From Desulforamulus putei DSM 12395 (GTDB lineage: Bacteria; Bacillota; Desulfotomaculia; Desulfotomaculales; Desulfotomaculaceae), in contig NZ_FQUY01000001.1 of assembly GCF_900129195.1 (NCBI RefSeq), positions 310,001 through 374,000 of the forward strand: a stretch of DNA of 64,000 nt. The letters run 5' to 3'. The notes beneath the pieces are model-generated. The model saw only the letters and a list, made by a program, of their open reading frames with translations. It was not told where the DNA came from and ran no database searches. Both the position numbers and the translations under genes were made by a program. Shown piece by piece: positions 12,220-36,463 of this stretch. Position 1 is the first letter of the stretch; every line of letters starts with the position of its first letter.

Positions 12220-13143
12220 TTGCTGGAAAAAGAACTTGTGATTATCGGCGGAGGGCCAGCCGGATATGCGGCCGGCTTATATGCTGCCAGGGCTGACATA
12301 AATGCCGTCTTAATCGAACGAGGCATGCCCGGAGGGCAGGCTGCGTCCACCGAATGGATTGAAAACTATCCTGGTTTCCCCGGTGGCATCGGCGGCCTTG
12401 ATCTGGCGCTGAAAATGGACGAACAGGCCCGTTCCTTTGGTTTGGAAATCATGAACGCAGACGTGGAGAAGCTGGAGCGTCAGGGCGACGAATTTATTGT
12501 CTATACCGCTCAGGAACCCGTCAAAGCCAAAGCAGTGATCCTGGCCACCGGTGCCAAGCCGCAATTTTTGGGTGTTGAAGGTGAAAGCAAGTTCCATGGT
12601 CGGGGTGTTTCCTATTGCGCCACCTGCGACGGCGCCTTTTTCCGGGATAAAACCGTGGCCGTGGTAGGGGGCGGCGATGCAGCCGTGGAGGAAGCTATCT
12701 TTTTAACCAAGTTCGCCAGAAAAGTTTACATTATCCACCGGCGCGGGGAATTAAGAGCCACCAAGCTGATTCAAAAGCGGGCCATGGCCAATGAGAAAAT
12801 TGAATTCCTCTGGTTTTCGGTGGTAGACCGGGTGCTTGGTGAAGATAAGGTAGAAGCCGTGCGGATTAAGGATGTGCGCACCGAGGCCATGCAGGATGTG
12901 CCGGTGGACGGCGTCTTTGTGTATGTGGGCACCAGGGCCAATTCCGATCTGGTGCAGGATCTGGTAGAAACCGATGCCCGGGGCTACATTGCCGCCAATG
13001 ATAAAATGGAAACCGGTGTTCCCGGCTTGTATGTGGCGGGAGACATTCGTCAAAAACCCCTGCGCCAGGTGGTAACCGCCGTGGCAGACGGTGCGGTAGC
13101 AGCCATGGAAGTGGAGAAGTATTTGGCATCTCGCGAGGAATAA
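12220..13143 (+). CDS. trxB: Thioredoxin reductase (NADPH)
   Basis: Cytoplasmic flavoenzyme that passes electrons from NADPH to thioredoxin. It has the FAD motif IIGGGPAGYAAG at the N-terminus, redox-active CATC (SYCATCDG) near residue 135, an NADPH Rossmann motif VVGGGDAAVEEA, the HRRGELRA phosphate-binding segment, and the C-terminal GLYVAGDIRQKPLRQ FAD motif. An upstream in-frame extension to 12142 is hydrophobic and not part of the family. TTG at 12220 sits 8 nt after GGAGG (12207-12211), so it is the likely start, giving 307 aa. Compare the flavoprotein at 30605, which lacks the NADPH motif. Confidence 0.93.
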   Translation: MLEKELVIIGGGPAGYAAGLYAARADINAVLIERGMPGGQAASTEWIENYPGFPGGIGGLDLALKMDEQARSFGLEIMNADVEKLERQGDEFIVYTAQEPVKAKAVILATGAKPQFLGVEGESKFHGRGVSYCATCDGAFFRDKTVAVVGGGDAAVEEAIFLTKFARKVYIIHRRGELRATKLIQKRAMANEKIEFLWFSVVDRVLGEDKVEAVRIKDVRTEAMQDVPVDGVFVYVGTRANSDLVQDLVETDARGYIAANDKMETGVPGLYVAGDIRQKPLRQVVTAVADGAVAAMEVEKYLASREE

Positions 13144-26666: not shown

Positions 26667-27263
26667 ATGGAAAGAGAATTTATCGTAAGTTATCCGATCG
26701 GGGACAGCTTGTATTTAAACATCACCAACCGTTGTTTTAACAAATGCGCCTTTTGCATCCGGCAAACCAAAACCGGCGTGGGTTATAATTTATGGCTCAG
26801 TAAAGAACCGTCTTTACCGGAAGTTTTGGATGCAGTGCAGGACCCCCGGCAGTATAAAGAAATTGTTTTTTGCGGCTACGGGGAGCCCTTATGCAGATTG
26901 GAACTGGTCAGGGAAGTGGCGGCTGAACTGAAAAAGAGAGGTGCCCGGTCCATCAGGGTCAATACCAACGGGCAAGCCAACAGTCTTTATGGACGCAATG
27001 TGGTGCCGGAACTGGCGGGGTTGGTGGATACCATGTCCATCTCCTTAAATGCCCAGGACGCAGCTACCTATGTCAAGCTGTGCCAACCCAGGGAAGGCGA
27101 AAAGGCCTATTTCTCTATGCTAGATTTTGCCAGAAAATGTGTGGGGGTGATTCCCCGCGTGATCCTGTCCGTGGTTGAGTGGCCAGGTGTAGATGTAGAA
27201 GCCTGCCGAGCCATTGCCAGGGACCTTGGCGCAGAGTTCCGTCTAAGGAAGCCAACCCTTTAA
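26667..27263 (+). CDS. Radical SAM protein, TatD-associated type
   Basis: A 198-aa radical SAM protein with CFNKCAFC (CxxxCxxC) near residue 23, GYGEP (GGE-like SAM motif), the RVNTNGQ strand and SISLNAQD. Size and motifs match the short TatD-linked radical SAM family, often next to or fused with a TatD nuclease. No tatD gene is adjacent here. The reaction is unknown. AAAGGG precedes the ATG at 26667. Confidence 0.78.
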   Translation: MEREFIVSYPIGDSLYLNITNRCFNKCAFCIRQTKTGVGYNLWLSKEPSLPEVLDAVQDPRQYKEIVFCGYGEPLCRLELVREVAAELKKRGARSIRVNTNGQANSLYGRNVVPELAGLVDTMSISLNAQDAATYVKLCQPREGEKAYFSMLDFARKCVGVIPRVILSVVEWPGVDVEACRAIARDLGAEFRLRKPTL

Positions 27264-27335: not shown

Positions 27336-27530
27336 TCATTCCGCCAACGGATTGTCTCCGGTACCAAAATTACGTGCTTTTTCTTTATCCCGGTCATAAA
27401 AATCGTGATCCCACTTGCCGTCCACTTTAATATGAGTGGCTGAGCCGGTGGGTTCGTGGACAAATTTTTTGCCGGTATCATAATGTTTTTCTTCTTCCCA
27501 CCGGTAGTTGTTTCGATTATCCTTATCCAT
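27336..27530 (-). CDS. Small hydrophilic protein, 64 aa
   Basis: Very polar protein rich in D, K, N and aromatic residues (MDKDNRNNYRWEEEKHYDTG, HIKVDGKWDHDFYDRD) without Cys or membrane segments. AAGGAGG is 8 nt before the ATG at 27530. The frame continues upstream to 27665 only through low-complexity PLFF repeats encoded by the tandem repeat, which is not real coding. Function unknown; a stress or spore-associated small protein is possible. Confidence 0.65.
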   Translation of the reverse strand: MDKDNRNNYRWEEEKHYDTGKKFVHEPTGSATHIKVDGKWDHDFYDRDKEKARNFGTGDNPLAE

Positions 27531-27616
27531 CGTTTTTGCCTCCTTCACCCGGTTTTTATTATTCTTGCCCGGTGAGGTTTTGTTATACACTGGCCAATTT
27601 GATAATAACAGGCCAC

Positions 27617-27684
27617 CGGGAAAGAATAGGGGAAAGAATAGGGGAAAGAATAGAGGAAAGAACATAGAAAAGAATATAGAAAAG
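27617..27684 (+). repeat. Tandem 12-bp repeat (GGGGAAAGAATA)
   Basis: About five units of GGGGAAAGAATA, the first three nearly perfect and the last two degenerate (GAAAAGAATATA). It lies between the divergent small gene and copA. It may alter promoter spacing or simply be slippage-prone DNA. Confidence 0.8.
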
Positions 27685-27827: not shown

Positions 27828-30263
27828 ATGGATGGTGTAAATTTGAGTACCGTACAAACCCGGTTAAAAATCACAGGCATGAGCTGTGCCGCTTGTTCCG
27901 CCAGGATTGAGCGCAGCATTGGTAAACTTGCTGGTGTGGAGAAAGCTCAGGTGAACCTGGCAGGGGAAATAGCTACCATTGATTATGATCCGACTGTTGT
28001 GCCGCTGGAGGAAATCATTCATAAGATTGAGGACATAGGTTTCGGTGTTGCCCGGGAGCAGTTGGAAATAAAGGTAAAGGGAATGACCTGTGCAGCCTGC
28101 TCGGCCAGGGTCGAGAGGGTTTTGAACCGCCTGCCCGGGGTCTTGCATGCAGCGGTAAACCTGGCCACAGAAAAGGCTGTGGTCAAATACAACCCGGCGG
28201 AAGTCAGCCCGGCAGACATCCGGCGGGCCATCCGGGATGCCGGTTATACGCCCGTATCCGAGACCGATGAGAGCAGCGCCGACCGGGAGCGTCAGGAAAG
28301 GGAACAAGAAATTCGCCGCCAGCAAAGGCTGTTTATGATTTCTGCCGTCCTGTCACTGCCGCTGGTGGCCTTTATGGTGGTTATGCTGGCCCAGTGGCAC
28401 CATGCCATGCGCTGGGGGATTTTTCATCCTTATACCCAGTTTGTCCTGGCTACGGCCATTCAGTTTGGCCCCGGCCTTCATTTTTATAAGGACGCCTGGC
28501 GCTCACTCCGCGGGGGCGGTGCCAATATGTCCGTCCTGGTGGCCCTGGGCACCAGCGCCGCTTATTTCTACAGCGTGGCAGCCACCTTCTTCGGTAAGCA
28601 AATCGGGCAGACAGAGGTTTATTACGAAACCGGCGCTGTCATTATCACCCTGGTTTTACTGGGTAAAATGCTGGAATCACTGGCCAGGGGTAGGACCTCC
28701 GAGGCCATCCGCAAACTGATGGGATTGCAGGCCAGGACCGCCAGAATCATCCAGGACGGGACGGAGAAGGAGATCCCCGTCGAGGATGTGCAGGTGGGAG
28801 ATGTCCTGGTGGTCCGTCCCGGGGAGAAAATACCCGTGGACGGCTTCATCACGGAAGGAACCTCTACGGTGGATGAGAGCATGCTGACCGGTGAAAGCGT
28901 TCCGGTGGATAAGCAGCCGGGGGACCCTGTCATCGGGGCCACCATCAATAAAATGGGAACCTTTAAATTTCAAGCCACCAAGGTGGGGAAAGACACCGCC
29001 CTGGCCCAGATTATTCGAATCGTGGAAGCAGCCCAGGGCAGCAAGGCGCCCATTCAACGGATGGCGGATGTGATTTCTTCCTATTTTGTGCCCGTGGTGG
29101 TGGCCATCGCCTTGGTGACCTTTGCCGCCTGGTACCTGTGGGTTAAACCGGGCGACCTTTCCCAAGCCCTTTTATCCGCCACGGCGGTACTGGTGATCGC
29201 CTGTCCCTGCGCCCTAGGCCTGGCCACCCCCACCTCCATTATGGTGGGAACCGGCAAAGGGGCTGAAATGGGGATATTAATTAAAGGCGGCGAATACCTG
29301 GAAAAAGCTTACCGCCTTAATGCCATTGTTTTGGACAAAACCGGAACCATCACGCATGGGCAGCCCAAACTTACCGACTTAATTACTGTCGGCGATTACA
29401 GCAACCAGGAAGCCAAGGTGCTGAGGCTGGCGGCCGCGGTGGAGCGAAATTCCGAACACCCGCTGGCCAGGGCTGTTATGGAGGCGGTGGGGGAAGCCGG
29501 TGAAAATCCCTATACCGTGACGGATTTTACGGCCATTCCCGGTTTTGGTGTGAAGGCCAGAATAAATGAAACAGAGATTTTATTAGGCACCGGCAAGCTA
29601 ATGTCGCAAAATAATATTGATTTTTCCCGGTGGGATGCCACCAGGGAGGCGTTGGAAGAGCAGGGCAAAACGGTCATGCTGATGGCGGTGGACGGTAAAC
29701 CGGCCGGTCTGCTGGCCGTGGCTGATACTGTGAAGGAAGAATCTGCTTCCGCCATTAAGAAGCTGGTGGAAATGGGTATCGAGGTCTGGATGCTGACCGG
29801 CGACAATCGGAGAACCGCCCGCAGCATTGCAGCCCAGGTGGGTATTCAAAATGTCTTGGCGGAAGTGCTGCCGGAAGACAAGGCCGAGAAAGTAAAGGAA
29901 CTCAAAGAACAAAATAAAATTGTAGGCATGGTTGGTGACGGCATCAATGATGCTCCGGCCTTGGCTACGGCGGATGTGGGTTTTGCCATCGGCACCGGCA
30001 CCGATGTGGCCATGGAGGCGGCGGATATTACATTAATCCGCGGCAACCTCTGGGGCGTAGTGGACAGCATCGCCCTCTCCAGGGCCACCATGAGAAATAT
30101 TCGGCAAAATCTTTTCTGGGCGTTGTTTTATAACACCGTGGGCATTCCGGTGGCGGCCATGGGTTTATTGAACCCAGTCCTGGCCGGTGCGGCCATGGCC
30201 TTCAGCTCGGTTTCGGTGGTTACCAATGCCCTGCGTTTGAAGCGATTTACGCCCCGCCATTAG
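27828..30263 (+). CDS. copA: Copper(I)-exporting P1B-type ATPase
   Basis: Membrane copper pump of 811 aa. Two N-terminal heavy-metal-associated domains carry [12 protein letters not shown] and [12 protein letters not shown]. The P-type core has TGES, the CPC metal site in [17 protein letters not shown] phosphorylation site, the SEHPLA histidine motif, TGDNRRTA and GDGINDAP. The last helices have YNTVGIP and [13 protein letters not shown], the pattern of Cu(I) pumps. The start may be ATG 27828 or TTG 27843; GGTG lies 5 nt before the TTG. copZ follows 32 bases later. No CsoR or CopY gene or clear operator is visible. Confidence 0.93.
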
Positions 30264-30295: not shown

Positions 30296-30505
30296 ATGGC
30301 AGACACAATTATCCTTAAGGTAGAAGGCATGAGCTGCAATCACTGCAAAATGGCTGTGGAAAAGGCAGTGAAAAAGGTCCCGGGGGTACAGGCGGTGGAA
30401 GCTACGCCGACAGAAAAAAGTGTTAAGATAACCCACGATGGCAGCAGCAACCTGGAAGCCATTAAACAAGCCATTATGAATGAAGGTTACGTCGTTGTCG
30501 ACTAA
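30296..30505 (+). CDS. copZ: Copper chaperone CopZ
   Basis: A 69-aa heavy-metal-associated domain protein with MSCNHC near residue 12. It carries Cu(I) in the cytoplasm and hands it to the HMA domains of CopA. GGGAGG precedes the ATG. It is in the same direction as copA and 32 bases after it, so probably in one operon. Confidence 0.9.
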   Translation: MADTIILKVEGMSCNHCKMAVEKAVKKVPGVQAVEATPTEKSVKITHDGSSNLEAIKQAIMNEGYVVVD

Positions 30506-30510
30506 GGGAA

Positions 30511-30538
30511 TTAAACTGCACTCCGAAGTGCGGTTTAA
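30511..30538 (+). terminator. Hairpin after copZ
   Basis: TTAAACTGCACT (30511-30522) pairs with AGTGCGGTTTAA (30527-30538), 12 bp with one G-T pair and a CCGA loop. The following CCATTTT is only weakly T-rich. Confidence 0.5.
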
Positions 30539-30604
30539 CCATTTTCGGGCATAAGAACAACCTGCTCCAGCAACAATAACTTTGTTAAAACAGGGGGGAT
30601 CATC

Positions 30605-31534
30605 ATGGGAGACGGACTAAATATAAAGGAGCAATTTGATATTGCCGTCATCGGCTGCGGCCCGGCCGGCCTATCCGCAGCCATCAACGGTACCATCCGC
30701 AAAAAGAAGGTCGGCATCTTTGGCACGGACTTTTGCAGCCCGAAACTGCATCATGCGCCTCATATTGACAACTACCTGGGATTGCATAACATGACCGGTG
30801 AAGAACTGCGCAAGAGGTTTTTGGACCACGTAAAGGCCATGGGACTGGGGATCATTGAAAATAAAATAACCGGCGTGTACCCCGAGGAAGGCGGTTTTAT
30901 GTTACAGTCCCGGGACACATTTTATAAAGCCAGCGCTGTGATTTTAGCCACCGGTGTCAGCGCCGTCAAACCCATTAACCAGGAACTGGATTACCTGGGC
31001 CGGGGAGTCAGCTACTGCGCCACCTGTGACGGCCCCCTTTATAAAGGGAAAAAAGTGATTGTCCTGGCTTATAACCGGGAAGGTCTGGAAGAAGCCAATT
31101 TCTTAGCTGAAATAGCCTCGGAGGTATTGCTGGTTTCCCAGATAAAAGAAAAGGAAGCTCAGGGCATCACGCTGGATGAAAAGATTAAAGTGATTCAAGG
31201 GAAACCGGTGGGCATTACCGGTGATATGTGGGCTACGGGAGTTGCGCTGGAAGGGCAGAATTTAACCGCTGACGGTGTTTTTATCATCCGGGATTCGGTC
31301 CTGCCGGACCAGCTGGTGCCCGGCCTGAATGTCAGCAACACAGGGATTGTCGTTGACCGCAGCGGCGCCACCAACATACCGGGTGTCTTTGCCGCCGGGG
31401 ATTGCACCGGTGCCCCTTACCAACTGAGCAAAGCCACCGGAGAGGGTCAGGTGGCGGCCCTAAGCGCTGTCAAGTACCTGGATGAACTGAAAAACAAAGC
31501 CGGAGACACCAAAAAGGAACTTGCCGCAATATAA
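30605..31534 (+). CDS. Thioredoxin-reductase-like flavoprotein lacking NADPH motifs (FFTR/DTR-like)
   Basis: A 309-aa protein of the thioredoxin reductase fold. The FAD motif IGCGPAGLSAA, the redox pair CATC (SYCATCDG) and the C-terminal GVFAAGDCTGAPYQLSKA are present. The second Rossmann motif, GGGDAA in trxB at 12220, is replaced by LAYNREGLEEA, and the HRR segment is absent. Such loss is known in ferredoxin-dependent flavin thioredoxin reductases of clostridia and in related NADPH-independent enzymes. The electron donor here is therefore probably ferredoxin (inference). It starts after GGGGGGATC and may be co-transcribed with copAZ. A perfect palindromic terminator follows. Confidence 0.75.
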   Translation: MGDGLNIKEQFDIAVIGCGPAGLSAAINGTIRKKKVGIFGTDFCSPKLHHAPHIDNYLGLHNMTGEELRKRFLDHVKAMGLGIIENKITGVYPEEGGFMLQSRDTFYKASAVILATGVSAVKPINQELDYLGRGVSYCATCDGPLYKGKKVIVLAYNREGLEEANFLAEIASEVLLVSQIKEKEAQGITLDEKIKVIQGKPVGITGDMWATGVALEGQNLTADGVFIIRDSVLPDQLVPGLNVSNTGIVVDRSGATNIPGVFAAGDCTGAPYQLSKATGEGQVAALSAVKYLDELKNKAGDTKKELAAI

Positions 31535-31558
31535 AAGAAGGCCCGCGGGCCTTCTTTT
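31533..31558. terminator. Bidirectional palindromic terminator
   Basis: A perfect 26-base palindrome with AAAAGAAGG and CCTTCTTTT arms between convergent genes; T runs exist on both strands. Confidence 0.8.
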
Positions 31559-33493: not shown

Positions 33494-33880
33494 ATGTACG
33501 AGTTGACAGTCCGAAGCAGGTTCTCCGCTGCCCACAGTCTCTGCGGTTACCCCGGCGATTGTGCGAGATTGCACGGGCATACCTGGACCCTTGAAGTGAA
33601 GGTGGTCGGCGAAAAACTGGATCAAATGGGTATGCTGGTGGATTTTAAGGAAATAAAGAAGCAACTGTCTTTGGTCATCGATCAATTGGATCATCGCTTG
33701 CTTAACGAGATCCCGGGCTTTGGGAAAGACGGCCTAAATCCCACAGCTGAAAACTTATCATATTATATTTACCAAACCCTGAAGCAGCCCATTGCTGCCA
33801 TGAAGGAAGGGATCCGGCTCAAGGAGATTTCCGTGTGGGAATCCCCGGATGCCTATGCTACCTATCGGGAGGATGTTTAA
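33494..33880 (+). CDS. queD: 6-carboxy-5,6,7,8-tetrahydropterin synthase
   Basis: First gene of a 7-deazaguanine operon. It converts 7,8-dihydroneopterin triphosphate to 6-carboxytetrahydropterin. Zinc histidines are in FSAAHSL and RLHGHTW, with the catalytic Cys in GDCARLHGH. It is 128 aa, normal. GGAGG precedes the ATG. The upstream 150-nt leader was checked for a preQ1 riboswitch and no convincing aptamer was seen. Confidence 0.92.
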   Translation: MYELTVRSRFSAAHSLCGYPGDCARLHGHTWTLEVKVVGEKLDQMGMLVDFKEIKKQLSLVIDQLDHRLLNEIPGFGKDGLNPTAENLSYYIYQTLKQPIAAMKEGIRLKEISVWESPDAYATYREDV

Positions 33881-34576
33881 TTGAACAGTGTGGTACTTCT
33901 ATCGGGCGGGCTGGATTCCGCCGTCAACCTGGCCTATGCCTTGACCGAAGGAAAGGTGAAACTGGCCCTTACCATGAACTACGGCCAACATGCAGCGAAC
34001 AAGGAGATAGATGCTGCAGCGGCATTGGCCCGGCATTACGATATTCCTCACCGGGTCATTGAGCTGCCCTGGCTGGCACAAATTACGCAAACGGCGCTGG
34101 TAAGCAATCAAAACGCTTTACCGGAGCCCTCAGCCGAGGAACTGGATAACATGGATGCTGCCCATAAAACAGCAGCTGCGGTTTGGGTTCCCAACCGCAA
34201 CGGATTGTTTGTTAATATCGCTGCCTGTTTTGCCGAGACTTTAAACTGTGGGCTGGTGGTGGCAGGTTTTAACCGGGAAGAAGCGGCTACCTTTCCGGAC
34301 AATACGCCGGAGTTCGCGGCGGCCGCCAGCAGGGCCATGGCCTATTCCACCTCCAATCAAGTAAAAGTCATCAGTTATACGAACCGTTTGGATAAGAAAG
34401 AAATCGTCGCCCTGGGGGACCGTTTAGGGGTACCCTGGGATTTCATTTGGAGCTGCTACCGGGGCGAGGAACAGATGTGTGGCAAATGTGAGAGCTGCCG
34501 ACGTATGATGCGGGCTTTTACGTCCCTCAATATAAACCTGCCCGCAGCCCTGAAGAACCGGGCCGGAGGTGAGTAA
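33881..34576 (+). CDS. queC: 7-cyano-7-deazaguanine (preQ0) synthase
   Basis: ATP-dependent enzyme making preQ0 from 7-carboxy-7-deazaguanine and ammonia. LSGGLDSAVNLA is the PP-loop, VPNRNGLFVNIA and GFNREEAATFPDN are family motifs, and the zinc cluster is CYRGEEQMCGKCESCRRM. TTG at 33881 follows queD directly; GGGAGG lies within the queD end. It is 231 aa. Next in the order is DUF366, then queE. Confidence 0.93.
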   Translation: MNSVVLLSGGLDSAVNLAYALTEGKVKLALTMNYGQHAANKEIDAAAALARHYDIPHRVIELPWLAQITQTALVSNQNALPEPSAEELDNMDAAHKTAAAVWVPNRNGLFVNIAACFAETLNCGLVVAGFNREEAATFPDNTPEFAAAASRAMAYSTSNQVKVISYTNRLDKKEIVALGDRLGVPWDFIWSCYRGEEQMCGKCESCRRMMRAFTSLNINLPAALKNRAGGE

Positions 34577-34577
34577 C

Positions 34578-35141
34578 GTGCTGGTCCGTGTGGTGGAAAA
34601 GCCGTTACAGTATGACGGCAGGCAATTGTCCTCACTGTTTGGTTTCCGCAATTTCGGCATACAGGGGGACAGCATCATCTGTTTTCGCGGGGGTTGCCGG
34701 GTGGAACTGACGGAAATGGTGGATTTGGCAGACGTCCGGGAAAATGCGCCCATTTACAGTGAAGACATGCTGCATTTTATCATTGAACATTTTGACATGG
34801 ATTTAGAAAAAACAGTGATTCGTCAGCGGTTGTTTATTGCCATCATTAAAGAAATTCTGGAAAGCAATACCGGAGTCACCTTCCGGAGAAGCGGTGACGA
34901 TCTTTACCAGGGCGAGCGAAAACTTTCCGTGTCCATTGCCACCGCCAGTCCTGTGTCCACCATGATTCACACCGGTCTGAATGTGTCTTCCCTGAACACC
35001 CCGGTACCCACCGTCGGTCTGGCTGATTTGGGGATACCGCCCGGTGAAATCCTGGCCATGGGTGAGATCATGGCCCGGGCTTATGCGGAGGAAATGAAAA
35101 GCATCCGGTTAGCCCGCTGCAAGGTCAGGGGGGTAGGCTAG
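34578..35141 (+). CDS. DUF366 family protein in the queuosine-precursor operon
   Basis: A 187-aa protein matching the DUF366 pattern: GDSIICFRGGCRVELTEMVD, then MLHFIIEHFDMDL, then RQRLFIAIIKEIL, and a late PVPTVGLADLG segment. The GTG at 34578 is 8 nt after GGAGG at 34565-34569; an in-frame GTG at 34569 lies inside that site. It is wedged between queC and queE with one-base overlaps or short gaps, so it is clearly translated with them. Function unknown; a role in 7-deazaguanine synthesis or use is inference from context. Confidence 0.78.
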   Translation: MLVRVVEKPLQYDGRQLSSLFGFRNFGIQGDSIICFRGGCRVELTEMVDLADVRENAPIYSEDMLHFIIEHFDMDLEKTVIRQRLFIAIIKEILESNTGVTFRRSGDDLYQGERKLSVSIATASPVSTMIHTGLNVSSLNTPVPTVGLADLGIPPGEILAMGEIMARAYAEEMKSIRLARCKVRGVG

Positions 35142-35884
35142 TGTCCGGCGCCTATCTCCAGGAAATCTTTTCTTCAGTGCAGGGAGAAGGTCCCTTTGTT
35201 GGTTGCCGGCAGGTTTTTATAAGACTGGCGGGCTGTAACTGGACCTGTACTTACTGTGACACACCCACCGATCCGGCGCCAAAGACCTGGGTCATGGAAA
35301 AAACCCCCGGATGCAGAAACTTTATGACCTTGGCCAACCCGGTAGAACCGGTGGAGCTGGCCGAAATGATTACGAGCCATTATGATTTAACCCTGCATCA
35401 TTCCGTCAGTCTCACCGGCGGTGAACCGTTACTCCACACGCAATTTTTAAAGAAACTCATCCCCGGGATTTGCGGCACCCGGGCAGGCATTTTCTTAGAG
35501 ACCAACGGCACACTGCCCGATAAATTATCTTCGGTGATTGACTGGGTTGATATTGTAAGTATGGATGTTAAACTGGAGAGTTCAACCGGTACCAAGACCC
35601 CCTGGGATGCTCATAAAAGATTTTTAACGGTGGCGGCACGAAAAAAGGTGTACGTGAAAGTTGTGGTCTCTGCGTCAACAAAGGAAGCAGAGATAGAACA
35701 AACAGGCAAACTCATTTACAGCATCGATCCGGAAATTGAATTAATTCTGCAGCCTGTCACAGCCAGGGGAGGCATTGTTACGCCATCCGTTGACAGGGTC
35801 CTGAGACTTCAGGAACGTGCCCTCAAAATATTGCAAAACGTGAGGGTGATTCCGCAAACTCACCTGATGATGGGGCAGTTATAG
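35141..35884 (+). CDS. queE: 7-carboxy-7-deazaguanine synthase (radical SAM)
   Basis: Radical SAM enzyme that rearranges 6-carboxytetrahydropterin to 7-carboxy-7-deazaguanine. The cluster motif is CNWTCTYCD near residue 32, SLTGGEPLLH supplies the GGE motif, and FLETNGTLP is typical. It has the EIFSSVQGEGPFVGCRQVF start characteristic of QueE. GTG start overlaps the DUF366 stop by one base, with GGGGGG upstream. It is 247 aa. Confidence 0.92.
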   Translation: MSGAYLQEIFSSVQGEGPFVGCRQVFIRLAGCNWTCTYCDTPTDPAPKTWVMEKTPGCRNFMTLANPVEPVELAEMITSHYDLTLHHSVSLTGGEPLLHTQFLKKLIPGICGTRAGIFLETNGTLPDKLSSVIDWVDIVSMDVKLESSTGTKTPWDAHKRFLTVAARKKVYVKVVVSASTKEAEIEQTGKLIYSIDPEIELILQPVTARGGIVTPSVDRVLRLQERALKILQNVRVIPQTHLMMGQL

Positions 35885-35896
35885 AGGAGTGACAAA

Positions 35897-36463
35897 ATGT
35901 TTGATCTGCCAAAAATAGAACAAGCCGTAAAAATGATTTTAGAAGCCATTGGTGAAGACCCGGCCAGGGAGGGTTTGGTGGAGACGCCGGCCAGGGTGGC
36001 CAAAATGTATCAGGAAATTTTTGCCGGTTTGGAAGAAGACCCGGAGGCGCATCTGGATAAAACCTTTTCCGAGGAACATGAGGAAATGGTGCTGGTGAAG
36101 GACATTCGTTTGTTTAGCATGTGTGAACATCATTTGATTCCTTTCATTGGCAAGGCACACGTTTGCTACATTCCGAGAAACGGCAATGTCACCGGCTTAT
36201 CCAAACTGGCCAGGTTGGTTAACGGGTATGCCCGCCGCCCGCAGCTCCAGGAAAGACTGACTAAGCAAATTGCCGATGCCATTATGTCCCGCTTAAACCC
36301 CTACGGCGTACTGGTGGTGGTGGAAGCGGAACACCTCTGCATGTCTATGCGGGGGGTCAGAGCACCGGGGGCTAAAACGGTTACCTCGGCAGTCCGGGGC
36401 ATCTTTAAAAAGAACGAGGCTTCCCGGGCTGAAGCTATAAGTTTAATTATGAAGAGTGAATAA
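35897..36463 (+). CDS. folE: GTP cyclohydrolase I
   Basis: Converts GTP to 7,8-dihydroneopterin triphosphate, feeding QueD (and folate). Zinc and catalytic residues appear in [19 protein letters not shown] and in [15 protein letters not shown]. It is 188 aa, with GAGGAGTGAC before the ATG. Its place at the end of the que genes shows the operon makes its own pterin precursor. Confidence 0.95.

Follow-up and report, generated by a model that had tools for sequence, protein, structure and literature searches.

An open reading frame of Desulforamulus putei that probably encodes a clostridial-type ferredoxin-dependent flavin thioredoxin reductase with an extra cysteine pair

In ferredoxin-dependent flavin thioredoxin reductases (FFTRs), the transfer of electrons from ferredoxin to FAD is described in PMC12796991 as two successive one-electron steps, followed by a domain swing, reduction of the CxxC pair and dithiol exchange with thioredoxin. 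The same text gives the FAD potential of the Gloeobacter violaceus FFTR as approximately -448 mV, and FFTR therefore prefers ferredoxin over NADPH (PMC12796991). The CaFFTR2 enzyme of Clostridium acetobutylicum lacks a C-terminal tail (PMC8469568). For two further NADPH-independent thioredoxin reductases, TaTrxR and DvTRi, the donor is given as not settled in PMC5627308.

We analysed a window of 64,000 nucleotides from D. putei DSM 12395 (the whole stretch, positions 310,001 to 374,000 of contig NZ_FQUY01000001.1). Judged by sequence, motifs, homology and gene order, the open reading frame (ORF) at 30605-31534 very probably encodes a clostridial-type FFTR, in which electrons would pass from ferredoxin to FAD, on to the CATC pair and then to thioredoxin, and the neighbouring cop genes have no conserved link to it. 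The donor, the acceptor and the domain movement in this reading are taken over from characterised homologues.

The probable FFTR gene and its former NADPH site

The features of the gene, and of the protein used for comparison, are as follows.
30592-30598, + strand: purine-rich, Shine-Dalgarno-like AGGGGGG ahead of the FFTR start, read in the sequence
30605-31534, + strand: predicted FFTR gene, 309 aa, ATG start
31016-31027, + strand: codons of the redox-active CATC (Cys138, Cys141); CxxC invariant in 139/139 aligned relatives
31055-31102, + strand: degenerate former NADPH-binding segment VIVLAYNREGLEEANF, without GxGxxA and without HRRxxxR
31533-31558, + strand: intrinsic-terminator-like hairpin at the end of the FFTR unit, -16.6 kcal/mol, z -4.2, 11-bp stem followed by TTTT
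12220-13143, + strand: NADPH-type TrxB of the window, the comparison protein; TIGR01292 388.5 bits (cut-off 343), GGGDAA and HRRGELR

The ORF at 30605-31534 encodes a low-Mr thioredoxin-reductase flavoprotein and is not an orphan. The GxGxxG FAD domain of the low-Mr TrxR is present (GCGPAG; PF07992, 6.5e-23), and the motifs YCATCDG and AAGDC are retained as well. A preliminary description of this DNA had stated that the FAD motif and the CATC pair are kept, while the GGGDAA and HRR motifs of trxB at 12220 are missing. Both statements were borne out: GGGDAA and HRRxxxR are both present in the window TrxB and absent from the ORF, and the NADPH motifs GxGxxA and HRRxxxR were found in none of the 136 FFTR rows examined. 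The TrxB ORF was delimited mechanically from 12142, and the TTG at 12220 is a better fit to the family start.

With two NADPH motifs gone, the protein could be seen as an NADPH thioredoxin reductase that has decayed or lost its function. We give this explanation next to no credence. Each of the nine Desulforamulus genomes examined has an FFTR, and the window protein shares 71-80% identity with the eight others. Moreover, the segment that replaces the former NADPH site, IVLAYNREGLEEAN, is nearly invariant across the FFTRs of the genus. Since the frame is intact, the identity in the eight genomes is this high and the replacement segment is so well kept, the absence of the NADPH motifs is not chance decay; the invariance of CxxC in the 139 sequences likewise speaks against a degraded enzyme.

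Among solved structures, the best phmmer matches of the protein were 6gnc (9.4e-85), 6gna (2.2e-79) and 6gnd (5.6e-78), followed by 5nii (5.8e-37) and by NADPH enzymes at approximately 1e-32 or weaker. The same three entries also came first by more than 100 bits when a profile of relatives was used. In the tree, the protein clusters with the CaFFTRs, apart from TrxB. Of the thioredoxin-binding motifs, GRG is found at residues 132-134, and LY stands where FF is expected, as it does in both CaFFTR sequences. Against TIGR01292, the equivalog model of NADPH thioredoxin reductases, the protein scored 186.4 bits, below the cut-off of 343.45. The preliminary description had proposed an enzyme that depends on ferredoxin or is otherwise independent of NADPH; this score and the full-length best matches, which are the crystallised C. 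acetobutylicum FFTRs, support NADPH independence, probably with ferredoxin as the donor. The enzyme thus belongs to an already known family, and the recently defined FFTR family is extended to a spore-forming sulfate-reducer genus that also retains an NADPH-type TrxB.

Several other assignments were considered and rejected. An NADPH thioredoxin reductase is ruled out by the TIGR01292 score and the missing NADPH motifs. A diflavin disulfide oxidoreductase (DDOR) is defined as lacking the GR/KG thioredoxin-binding motif, whereas the window protein has GRG, and its identity to 5ode is only 21%. The Fe-S ferredoxin-thioredoxin reductase (FTR) does not apply, the window protein being a flavoprotein of another fold and not FeThRed_B. 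The cyanobacterial FFTR subtype was set aside as well, the C-terminus LDELKNKAGDTKKELAAI being without Trp.

The comparison of a predicted structure with known FFTR structures, suggested in the preliminary description, gave a concordant result: the top six Foldseek matches were C. acetobutylicum Ferredoxin-Flavin Thioredoxin Reductase entries (44-47% identity, E down to 8e-34). The AlphaFold model had a mean pLDDT of 82, falling to 57-58 for residues 41-60, and was lowest at the Cys44 loop. Its domain arrangement is NTR-like, whereas the CaFFTR crystals are open, which explains the large whole-chain rmsd to the CaFFTRs and why VIA-align geometry places NTRs higher. Because the input alignment consisted mostly of NTRs, the model is no guide between the open and the NTR-like conformations.

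Gene order around the copper genes

Upstream of FFTR, the following features were found.
26667-27263, + strand: small radical SAM protein (PF04055) that always precedes FFTR in the genus, also where cop genes are lacking
27828-30263, + strand: copA, copper P-type ATPase, TIGR01511 627 bits (cut-off 397); neighbour outside the FFTR system
30296-30505, + strand: copZ-like HMA chaperone, PF00403 1e-15; neighbour outside the FFTR system
30511-30538, + strand: 12-bp hairpin in the copZ-FFTR gap, perhaps a weak terminator, z -3.3 for 30506-30555

The preliminary description had correctly identified copA and copZ just upstream of the gene, and had suggested on this ground a thiol-redox role under copper stress. 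In such a role, FFTR would function together with copA-copZ and keep copper-exposed thiols or CopZ reduced. That FFTR directly follows copZ on the + strand, with a gap of 99 bp, is in favour of this idea. In addition, the gap is only 23, 34 and 60 bp in three other genus members that carry copAZ, so read-through and co-transcription from copZ to FFTR are possible there.

To examine the copper link, we compared the gene neighbourhoods of the window and 28 other loci. All nine Desulforamulus genomes examined share the arrangement radical SAM - [cop genes] - FFTR, in which FFTR is constant and the cop genes are variable. Both copA and copZ lie between the radical SAM gene and FFTR in five of the nine (the window, G002, G003, G004 and G007). 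Two genomes have copZ without copA at the locus (G001 and G008; L020 6050-6259 and L021 6957-7166), where the gaps measure 207 and 382 bp; in the remaining two (G005 and G006) FFTR is in place with no cop gene at all. Thus, copA is missing from the FFTR locus in four of the nine genomes and copZ in two. Outside the genus, neither copA nor copZ was found beside FFTR in any of 20 loci. Moreover, copZ and FFTR of G003 are separated by an intrinsic terminator, a GC-rich hairpin followed by TTTTCTT, and the corresponding place in the window has a hairpin. A consensus scan of the copZ-FFTR gap returned no FFTR promoter, although one may still be present.

The varying presence of the cop genes, together with the terminator and the hairpin, makes the copper hypothesis weak, and we consider a copper-stress enzyme quite improbable. 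Membership of FFTR in a cop operon as a conserved association is rejected by the gene order. A link to the cop genes is not supported, and the copper role is best abandoned unless it gains support from expression data.

Other neighbours were noted at these loci. A small conserved ORF with the core MDKDNRNNYRWEEEKHYDTGKKFVHEPTGSATHIKVDGKWDHDFYD lies at 27336-27665 (- strand) and recurs at the corresponding position in several genomes of the genus. Downstream, 33494-36463 (+ strand) holds a preQ0/queuosine-like cluster, judged by eye (queD, queC, queE and a folE-like gene). Outside the genus, complex I subunits, NuoE/NuoF-like genes and a sulfite-reductase-like gene are among the neighbours of FFTR. 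FFTR adjoins NuoE/NuoF-like genes in another family of the order (L064 851-4321; PF01257, PF01512), and in family f8 it adjoins a small sulfite/nitrite-reductase-like protein (L058 5000-6709; PF01077, PF03460).

The Cys18-Cys44 pair

In addition to CATC, the window FFTR carries two cysteines in its FAD domain.
30656-30658, + strand: Cys18 codon (FAD motif GCGPAG), member 1 of the extra pair
30734-30736, + strand: Cys44 codon (FCSPK, in the FAD-domain loop that follows strand 2), member 2 of the extra pair

Cys18 occupies position 2 of the GxGxxG turn, and Cys44 belongs to FC[ST]PK, in the loop that comes after the next strand; in NTRs, the position of Cys44 falls in the stretch just ahead of GGQ. 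Among the 136 aligned FFTRs from this phylum, both cysteines occur together in 77 and neither occurs in 54, with the first alone in three and the second alone in two. By corrected mutual information, 18-44 is the top of 39,920 column pairs (z = 14), much of this signal being shared descent. Residues 69 and 274 co-vary with the two columns as part of a small set, and Leu274 accompanies the pair in 66 of the 77. A maximum-likelihood tree from which these columns had been left out showed 8 changes of each Cys trait, of which at least 5 were coincident, a number that wrong branching would inflate. As many coincident changes were reached by one in 6000 pairs of independently simulated traits, the pairs being sampled from a pool of 400. 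Support for the tree is weak, and an independent-pairs test gives only 3 contrasts on strongly supported branches.

No cysteine was found at the GxGxxG turn of the NTR and viral TrxR sequences matched, nor at that of 6gnc, 6gna or 5nii, and the extra pair is absent from the solved FFTR sequences examined. The consulted parts of the FFTR literature contain no mention of a second cysteine pair. Two further candidates were rejected: Cys267 (AGDC), considered as a third member of the pair, shows no covariation with residue 18 or 44, and the histidines of HHAPH do not qualify as metal ligands, His50 and His53 being lost within the genus (HRAPS in L019) and variable in the family. Residue 171 (31115-31117) lies in a column that is Cys in 57% of FFTRs and Ala in the window, and its Cys is independent of the 18-44 pair.

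From TrxR structures, the Cys18 and Cys44 segments presumably lie near the FAD pyrophosphate and away from the isoalloxazine ring, so a structural, regulatory or metal role would fit, and electron transfer to thioredoxin would not. Tentatively, and with more doubt than confidence, we propose that Cys18 and Cys44 adjoin each other by the FAD in many FFTRs of the phylum and may act as a reversible disulfide or a metal site that tunes FAD binding or activity. If true, this would be a redox-switched FFTR subtype that is missing from all FFTR structures examined here. The pair is easily mutated, is present in over half of the FFTRs sampled, and is not informed by the structures of CaFFTR and GvFFTR.

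Predicted electron flow and comparison with known systems

Following the characterised homologues, reduced ferredoxin would dock on the open FFTR homodimer and give two electrons to FAD, one at a time. The CATC domain would then swing in, allowing the flavin to reduce the Cys138-Cys141 disulfide, and after swinging out would reduce thioredoxin by dithiol-disulfide exchange. The likely acceptor is the only Pfam thioredoxin found in the host genome (PF00085, WCGPC), which lies on another contig than FFTR and would be shared with the NADPH-dependent TrxB. Such a common thioredoxin could therefore receive electrons from the pool of ferredoxin or from that of NADPH. If it is charged from ferredoxin, disulfide control would be tied to low-potential anaerobic electron flow.

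Loss of the NADPH motifs is also what would be expected of an NADPH-independent thioredoxin reductase with another donor, such as flavodoxin, a deazaflavin or a different carrier, and DvTRi and TaTrxR, as presented in PMC5627308, show that this loss alone leaves the donor unfixed. However, the closest relatives of the window protein are by far proven or assigned FFTRs, and the anaerobic host has many Fer4 proteins, some of approximately 68-80 codons. We therefore regard a donor other than ferredoxin as unlikely. The Fe-S-type FTR catalytic subunit (FeThRed_B, PF02943) had no match in the host genome.

When the probable FFTR of the window is compared with described enzymes, the window TrxB has the same fold, FAD motif and CATC, but also GGGDAA and HRRxxxR, at approximately 30% identity. 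The TRi of Desulfovibrio vulgaris (5NII) likewise comes from a sulfate reducer and is a thioredoxin reductase independent of NADPH that exists alongside an NADPH enzyme; it is 35% identical by fold alignment, but forms a separate long branch in the tree and has the active site CVSC instead of CATC. The G. violaceus FFTR (5J60; 6XTF with ferredoxin), whose donor is ferredoxin, shares the FAD and CxxC motifs and the lack of an NADPH site at approximately 28-29% identity, but its C-terminal tail carries a Trp that stacks on FAD, for which the window FFTR has no counterpart. TrxB1 and TrxB4 of Clostridioides difficile, assigned as FFTRs in PMC10880999, are also clostridial and come from a genome that has NADPH-type TrxBs as well. 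Their genes are in operons with trxA (PMC10880999), in contrast to the host of the window FFTR with its thioredoxin on another contig.

The closest described enzymes are those of C. acetobutylicum (6GNA/6GNB; 6GNC, CaFFTR2; 6GND, the FFTR-Trx complex), to which the window FFTR is homologous over its full length at approximately 47% identity. Both have CATC, with YKGK beyond the active site, and lack NADPH motifs and a C-terminal Trp tail. However, CaFFTR is without both extra cysteines, with GSGPAG and NLSNK or DLSKK where the window FFTR has GCGPAG and FCSPK, and this pair sets the window FFTR apart from a simple copy of CaFFTR.
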